Assembly: GCA_030040915.1 (NCBI GenBank)
Contig: JASHSI010000153.1
Location: 1 to 32,999 of the forward strand
Length of the DNA stretch: 32,999 bases
Source: Thermoplasmata archaeon
GTDB lineage: Archaea; Thermoplasmatota; Thermoplasmata; Lutacidiplasmatales; UBA184
Reading direction: 5' to 3'
Below the pieces are notes generated by a model, which was not told where the DNA came from, did not search any database, and saw only the letters and a list, made by a program, of their open reading frames with translations. Numbering within the stretch: the first letter of the stretch is position 1; the number at the start of each line of letters is the position of its first letter. Position numbers and translations under genes: made by a program. This document shows, in pieces, positions 20,492 through 21,997 of the stretch.

Positions 20492-20614
20492 AGGGTCGGC
20501 TCGGACCGTAGCGCCTCGCCCGGTCCGTCGAAATCCTCCCGAGCCGGCGCGCCATAGGACCCGCGAGGGCGGCCGTCCGCGCCGTCGGCCGCCCGTTCGT
20601 TCCGAAGAATGCGC

Positions 20615-20651
20615 GAATATGTATAACTCCCATGACATACCGTAGGTCATG
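20615..20651 (+). promoter_or_regulatory. TATA box plus 21-bp operator-like near-palindrome
   Basis: ATATGTATAAC (20618-20628) is a good TATA box about 25 bp before ATG 20649. Between them CATGACATAC-C-GTAGGTCATG (20631-20651) pairs in nine of ten positions. It covers the predicted transcription start and runs into the start codon. This is a typical layout for a repressor operator on a leaderless archaeal gene. Confidence 0.6.
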
Positions 20652-21083
20652 TATGACTCAGGAGGGACCAAACACCTACGGGGTTTATGGTCCCATCTCC
20701 TGCCCTTGGCGATCGGCGTCCTGGCCGTCCTCGTGGCGGTCGCGGCGCTCGGCTTCCTCAACGACATGCGGCCGGGCGGCCCCCTCAACCCGGGGCCGGT
20801 CGTCCGCGTCTCCCTGATCGGGTGGACGAGCTCCGGTCAGGTCCTCTCGTCGGGGCCCGGGGCTCGGCTCGCTCCTGCCTCGCACACGACGTTCACGCTC
20901 GTCCTCACCAACGCCGCGGGCGGAACGATCGAATTCGGCTCGGCGACGACGAACGCGACCGGATTCTACGTGGTCTCGACCGACCTGCCAGCGGTGCCGT
21001 CCGGGGCCAGCGAGAACCTGACCGTCACGCTGTCGACGCCGTCGACGGCCTACTCGGGCCCGCTGTGGATCAATCTCGAGTAG
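20649..21083 (+). CDS. small membrane-anchored surface protein
   Basis: 144 residues. A polar N-terminus is followed by one hydrophobic helix (about residues 15-38, LLPLAIGVLAVLVAVAALGFL). An outside domain of about 100 residues follows, rich in Thr/Ser/Val, with HTTFTLVLTNAAGGTIEFGSATTNATG and ENLTVTLSTPS. The alternating pattern suggests a single Ig-like beta sandwich on the cell surface, with N-glycosylation sequons. No family is recognised. The start at 20649 is set by the TATA box about 25 bp upstream. The gene ends 61 bp before the moaD ATG on the same strand, so it might precede moaDE in one transcript, although the functions look unrelated. Confidence 0.65.
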   Translation: MYDSGGTKHLRGLWSHLLPLAIGVLAVLVAVAALGFLNDMRPGGPLNPGPVVRVSLIGWTSSGQVLSSGPGARLAPASHTTFTLVLTNAAGGTIEFGSATTNATGFYVVSTDLPAVPSGASENLTVTLSTPSTAYSGPLWINLE

Positions 21084-21144: not shown

Positions 21145-21402
21145 ATGGTCCGATCGGTGCACGTGCTCCTCTTCGCCTCCGCCCGGGAGGCGGTGGGCCG
21201 GCCCCGCCTCGAGCGAGCGGTCCCCCCGGGGGGCGTCCCCCTGCGGGAGCTTCTCGAGGGACTCGGGAGGGAGTACCCCGCGCTCCGCGCCCTGCTCGGT
21301 TCGTGCCGGGAGGCGTTGAACGGTCGGTACGTCCACGGTCGGTCGGTCCGGGTGCGGCCCGGTGATGAGCTCGCGATCCATCCACCGTTCAGCGGGGGAT
21401 AG
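21145..21402 (+). CDS. moaD: MoaD-type molybdopterin synthase small subunit
   Basis: 85 residues from ATG 21145, giving the normal MoaD length. The ORF track starts at TTG 21103, and an ATG at 21106 is also in frame, but the ubiquitin-like fold begins at VRSVHVLLFASAREAVG. It ends with PPFSGG; the C-terminal Gly-Gly is the site that is adenylated and turned into a thiocarboxylate, which donates sulfur to precursor Z. The stop lies four bases before moaE. The pair makes molybdopterin for molybdenum or tungsten enzymes. A homologous role in other sulfur-carrier pathways is possible, but the adjacent moaE makes MoaD the best call. Confidence 0.9.
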   Translation: MVRSVHVLLFASAREAVGRPRLERAVPPGGVPLRELLEGLGREYPALRALLGSCREALNGRYVHGRSVRVRPGDELAIHPPFSGG

Positions 21403-21406
21403 GCCG

Positions 21407-21805
21407 ATGAGCGTCCGTCTCAGCCGGCGGCCCCTCTCCGTCCCGGCGGCGTACCGGGAGCTCGGACAGGGCCCGGCGGGAGGGATCGCGATCTTCCTGG
21501 GGCGCGTCCGACCCGACCGGGTTGGCGCCCGGATCGTACGAGCGCTCGACTACGAGGCGGACGAAGGGATCGCCCTGGCCGCGATGCACCGGATCGAACG
21601 GGGCGCCCGGGCGCGTTGGGGGGCCGACGAGATCGTGCTCCACCACCGGATCGGACGGCTCCGCGTCGGCGAGATCAGCGTCATCGCCGGCGCCGCGGCC
21701 GCGCACCGCGCCGATGCGTTCCGCTCGGCCCGCTGGATCATCGAGCGCTTGAAGTCCGACGTCCCGATCTGGAAGCAGAACGTCCTGTCGGGCGATCCCC
21801 GGTAG
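21407..21805 (+). CDS. moaE: molybdopterin synthase catalytic subunit MoaE
   Basis: 132 residues from ATG 21407, four bases after the moaD stop; the ORF-track start at 21362 lies inside moaD. Family marks: GIAIFLGRVRPD (strand with conserved Gly and Arg), ALDYEAD, the EISVIAGAAAAHRADAF segment, and KSDVPIWKQ with the two lysines expected at the active site. Two MoaE and two MoaD subunits form the enzyme that inserts the dithiolene sulfurs into cyclic pyranopterin monophosphate. Its TAG stop sits in TCCCC-GGTA-GGGGA, a short inverted repeat. Confidence 0.92.
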   Translation: MSVRLSRRPLSVPAAYRELGQGPAGGIAIFLGRVRPDRVGARIVRALDYEADEGIALAAMHRIERGARARWGADEIVLHHRIGRLRVGEISVIAGAAAAHRADAFRSARWIIERLKSDVPIWKQNVLSGDPR

Positions 21806-21900: not shown

Positions 21901-21970
21901 CGTTACGCCATAACTATGTAGTTATGTCAATAATTATATTGTTATGGTCAATATATCGTTAAATCCCAAT
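21901..21970 (+). promoter_or_regulatory. AT-rich promoter with 18-bp palindrome and repeated GTTATG half-sites
   Basis: This ~60-bp AT-rich island lies before the secreted phosphoesterase gene. CATAACTA-TG-TAGTTATG (21909-21926) is a palindrome with perfect 8-base arms. The unit GTTATG(G)TCAATA occurs twice in direct orientation (21921-21931 and 21941-21952). CAATAATTATATTG between them is itself partly symmetric. AATATATCG and GTTAAATC (21950-21965) are the candidate TATA boxes for ATG 21998. The bases from 21806 to 21900 hold nothing I can support. Confidence 0.6.
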
Positions 21971-21997
21971 GAAAGGCATAGCCCATGAGGTCCCCCA

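Follow-up and report, generated by a model that had tools for sequence, protein, structure and literature searches.

In a Thermoplasmata archaeon, the promoter of a gene for a secreted phosphoesterase contains two tandem 18-bp dyads 20 bp apart, which, with a probability of about 0.6, would constitute a cooperative operator for a homodimeric regulator of the winged-helix or Lrp type. The window analyzed here, 32,999 nucleotides in length, is contig C109 of a draft genome of 1.81 Mb (181 contigs, 85% complete), and the nearest named relatives of the phosphoesterase are found in metagenome-assembled genomes of Thermoplasmata archaea. Because the host is an archaeon, its promoter logic must be archaeal (TBP, TFB and a TATA box), and sigma-factor logic is inapplicable; the single match of a sigma-70 scan, to the consensus on the minus strand, was dismissed for this reason. 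In addition to its catalytic domain, the encoded protein has a signal-like segment at the N-terminus, as read from the sequence, and pentapeptide repeats at the C-terminus (PF00805, E 5.9e-22), and NCBIfam gave only sub-threshold matches. The features of the promoter and the related sites are listed in the table.

Inspection of the sequence and a repeat finder confirmed an 18-bp palindrome (P1) and two direct copies of GTTATG(G)TCAATA, in sequence and position as given in a preliminary description of this DNA. The same description counted three GTTATG half-sites at intervals of about 20 bp. Those at 21921 and 21941 are indeed direct and 20 bp apart, but the spacing is not even, as the third, CATAAC at 21909, is inverted and lies 12 bp from the GTTATG at 21921. 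The fuller description is that of two tandem dyads, the second of which (P2) had been overlooked and differs from the half-site pattern of P1 by 2 mismatches. The repeat finder reported 82% identity between 21930-21946 and 21910-21926 at a spacing of 20, and an inverted repeat with 18-nt arms, 83% complementary, formed by 21908-21925 and 21930-21947; the region can thus alternatively be described as one 40-bp imperfect dyad, 21908-21947. An imperfect dyad of this length in AT-rich DNA might also mark the terminus of a mobile element, an element of a replication origin or a structured RNA. Any of these readings is very unlikely, since the sequence occurs once in the genome and, for RNA, Rfam gave no match and the 2-nt loop of P1 is too tight for a hairpin.

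Features of the phosphoesterase promoter and sites of the pst element in the same genome (positions in the window unless a locus is given)
Feature	Position	Strand	Basis or remark
moaE, upstream gene, same strand as phosphoesterase	21362..21805	+	PF02391, E 6.7e-29
Distal palindrome P1, CATAACTA-TG-TAGTTATG, proposed dimer site	21909..21926	.	8 of 9 pairs
Direct repeat copy 1, GTTATGTCAATA	21921..21932	+	sequence reading, motif search
Proximal weaker palindrome P2, AATAATTATATTGTTATG, proposed second dimer site	21929..21946	.	offset of 20 bp downstream from P1
Direct repeat copy 2, GTTATGGTCAATA	21941..21953	+	end overlaps proposed TATA box
Proposed archaeal TATA box, CAATATATC	21949..21957	+	inferred from sequence reading
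GAGGT, possible ribosome-binding site	21986..21990	+	inferred by reading; 7 nt before ATG 21998
Secreted phosphoesterase (PF04185), 490 aa	21998..23470	+	PF04185, E 2.8e-24
pst operon site	L113 2773-2842 (C141)		PWM, 40.7 bits
PhoU-family gene site	L083 7182-7233 (C63)		PWM, 52.8 bits
Third pst-element site	L188 about 1500-1554 (C98:16007-16042)	minus	profile search

The symmetry was evaluated with dinucleotide-preserving shuffles of 21905-21970 (66 bp), all p-values being post hoc. A palindrome with arms of at least 8 was obtained with p = 0.0245, a gapped direct repeat of at least 12 with p = 0.007 and tandem 18-mer dyads with p = 0.006, and palindrome and repeat occurred jointly in 1 of 4000 shuffles. 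The contrast in AT content with the surroundings, pointed out previously, is also real. Of the genome, about 578 kb including the window were covered; in this sequence the numbers of patches with at least 60%, 70% and 80% AT over 40 bp were 64, 8 and 3, respectively, and the phosphoesterase promoter is among the last three. Nevertheless, there is a substantial, though smaller, chance that this is a plain AT-rich core promoter whose flanks melt easily, and that its dyads arose by chance from the composition of a patch that was picked because it was striking. The motif is unique and not conserved, as this explanation would have it, and per-feature values of 0.006-0.025, obtained post hoc, are modest when about 15 patches were considered. 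On the other hand, the joint occurrence of palindrome and repeat in a single one of the shuffles is not readily accounted for in this way, and composition demands neither a two-turn register nor a position adjacent to the TATA box.

For the base rate of symmetry, 15 AT-rich patches were used, 12 from the same genome and 3 from upstream of phosphoesterase homologs. Tandem dyads reached p ≤ 0.01 in only three of them, the phosphoesterase promoter, L080 and L076, and the patches of the pst operon, the PhoU-family gene (L083), L033, L034 and L020 did not reach this value. Strong symmetry therefore appears to be a minority trait of AT-rich patches, found mainly where self-regulation is plausible. 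The patch at L076 1081-1153 is highly symmetric (CCGATATCG-TAATTT-CGATATCGG) and precedes an ORF that, judged by eye, is PadR-like; it is likely a self-regulated promoter. The patch at L080 13031-13123 contains a palindrome with 9-base arms, TTATTTTGTACAAAATAA, and precedes an ORF whose start resembles a helix-turn-helix by eye. The window has a second AT-rich patch at 20594-20665, with an imperfect dyad (GTCATGTATGAC) whose symmetry is not above chance, preceding a small, membrane-anchored-looking ORF at 20649.

Conservation of the motif in close relatives, on which the preliminary description had made its guess depend, was not found. No second GTTATG(0-1)TCAATA site is present in the same assembly, and none in the 60 other genomes of the genus. 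When CATAAC-N6-GTTATG was searched with at most one mismatch, P1 was the sole match in the whole assembly and three scattered matches appeared in the other 60 genomes; with 2 mismatches, the number of matches equaled that of the reversed control. Two orthologs of about 64% identity (L033 and L034) have AT-rich patches at the corresponding position, with no comparable dyads, and the orthologs in genomes G029 and G035 have no AT patch within the upstream stretches read. The 255 bp upstream of the gene were compared with the genus, and only short GC-rich matches at query positions 12-70 were returned, which by appearance arise from composition within coding sequence rather than from conserved regulation. 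Within the available stretches, some of them short, the neighboring window genes tested did not lie beside the orthologs.

The element at 21949-21957 is a probable TATA box. It resembles TTCAATATATTC of the pst promoter at L142, and the end of P2 lies 3 bp from it. In L033 and L034, CATTATAATCG and CATTATGTTCG, respectively, are found 42-46 bp before the start codon, compared with 49 in the window, although this correspondence was recognized by eye and the elements were not stacked by MAFFT. P2 itself includes another TATA-like sequence, AATTATATTG (about 21930-21940), and if this were the true box, a bound repressor would occlude TBP. This variant of the operator explanation, with which its probability overlaps, is unlikely: it entails a longer leader, by arithmetic about 37 nt instead of 18, and the element at 21949 fits the position in L033 and L034 better.

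Secreted phosphoesterases in bacteria are often under phosphate control, and the preliminary description guessed at a phosphate-dependent regulator from the product of the downstream gene. The phosphate promoters of the genus were defined as follows. Among the 61 genomes, pstS was located in 39, upstream DNA was taken from 30 pstS loci, and 23 of these, excluding the genome under study, were used for a position weight matrix (PWM). The 23 promoters align without gaps over 54 bp, GCATAnAnnnAnCTATTGnnnnnTATAnAGTCTAAATTGAnTTTCTATATATCC, with the pattern CTATTG-N5-TATANAGTCTAAATTGANTTTCTATATAT; at six pstS loci, the 360 bp inspected contained no AT patch. The PWM recovered the held-out pst operon of the genome under study, and it also picked up, without prompting, a gene on contig C63 that encodes a PhoU-domain protein (E 1.3e-10 for PhoU; the N-terminus gives a weak match, MazE/AbrB-like). 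In a profile search, the element was present in 49 of 61 genomes, usually once or twice per genome, and the two second-site loci that were checked with Pfam both precede PhoU-domain proteins. The 54-bp element, noted at loci L131-L157 as well as at the sites in the table, is thus a candidate archaeal phosphate box common to pstS and PhoU-family genes. The third site in the genome under study directly precedes an ORF of 134 aa containing several cysteines, which may also belong to the phosphate regulon. A limited literature search yielded nothing on point about this element or about archaeal phosphate promoters.

At the phosphoesterase promoter, the PWM scored -3.7 bits at best, against 40.7 and 52.8 bits at the two other sites of the genome, and cmsearch, run to E ≤ 10, recovered both of these and found no match within the window or any of 18 loci of phosphoesterase homologs. 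The genome-wide search for GTTATG-(0-1)-TCAATA returned a single site, that of the phosphoesterase promoter, and the motif therefore precedes no phosphate gene. The preliminary description had named absence of the motif before phosphate-related genes, or from close relatives, as evidence against its guess; since both were observed, the guess fails on its own terms. An operator for a phosphate-responsive regulator is accordingly very unlikely, despite the nature of the downstream gene. Judged by these matches, control by the phosphate regulon that the pst element marks is excluded, as far as the element defines this regulon, and the phosphoesterase may be under a different phosphate sensor. Because it contains no phosphate-control sequence present elsewhere in its genome, the promoter is a fairly ordinary, lineage-private archaeal promoter. 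Alone it matters little, being one regulated promoter of an uncultured archaeon; the genus-wide pst element, a by-product of testing the phosphate idea, is of more use, as it allows a phosphate regulon to be defined in concrete and checkable terms for an uncultured Thermoplasmata genus with little experimental data on regulation.

The proposal of a site for a cooperative dimeric regulator fared better than that of phosphate control, since symmetry beyond chance, two-turn spacing and a position adjoining the probable TATA box support such a putative site. In the operator model, TBP and TFB would bind the TATA box at about 21949-21957 and transcription would start near 21980. P1 and P2, two helical turns apart and upstream of the box, would form the cooperative operator, and the bound homodimeric regulator would act on TBP/TFB recruitment. 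Repression by occlusion would be slightly less likely than activation through this recruitment, because the proximal site adjoins the core promoter from upstream. The binding sites of archaeal Lrp regulators are clustered, imperfect semi-palindromes spaced by two or three turns, and for Lrp activators one dimer site is located a few bp upstream of the BRE (PMC2995911); the present dyads agree with the semi-palindromic dimer sites at two-turn spacing described there. This layout, together with five AsnC/Lrp-family domain matches in the genome, none of them tied to this site, favors a cooperative dimeric operator. The operator reading also gains support from symmetry exceeding that of the shuffles, from the AT-rich upstream patches in L033 and L034, and from the other symmetric AT patches, as these include two before PadR-type-like or HTH-type-like ORFs where self-binding operators would be expected. 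Against it, real operators are usually common to several genes or kept in orthologs, and P1 and P2 appear to be neither; the upstream stretches in G029 and G035 are without an AT patch, and no regulator gene was recognized among the window ORFs scanned. That the paired palindromes are the dedicated operator of a regulator with the phosphoesterase as its single target, independent of the pst/PhoU phosphate regulon, is rather improbable. If true, the enzyme would have some use other than supplying phosphate, for example obtaining carbon from phospholipids.

The bacterial Pho box consists of direct repeats with 11-bp spacing. The phosphoesterase promoter is similar in having repeats upstream of a gene for a phosphate-handling enzyme, but the host is an archaeon and repeats with this spacing were not seen in it. 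With the pst element of the genus it shares an AT-rich patch including a TATA-like box, whereas sequence, spacing and symmetry are unlike and the element does not score there. Archaeal Lrp/AsnC-type operators (Ptr2, LysM and Ss-LrpB; PMC2995911) differ in that the phosphoesterase site is unique in its genome, and the likeness is one of layout: in both, clustered imperfect semi-palindromes are placed two turns apart from center to center, with the proximal one a few bp upstream of the core promoter, as far as the proposed TATA box marks it in the window.
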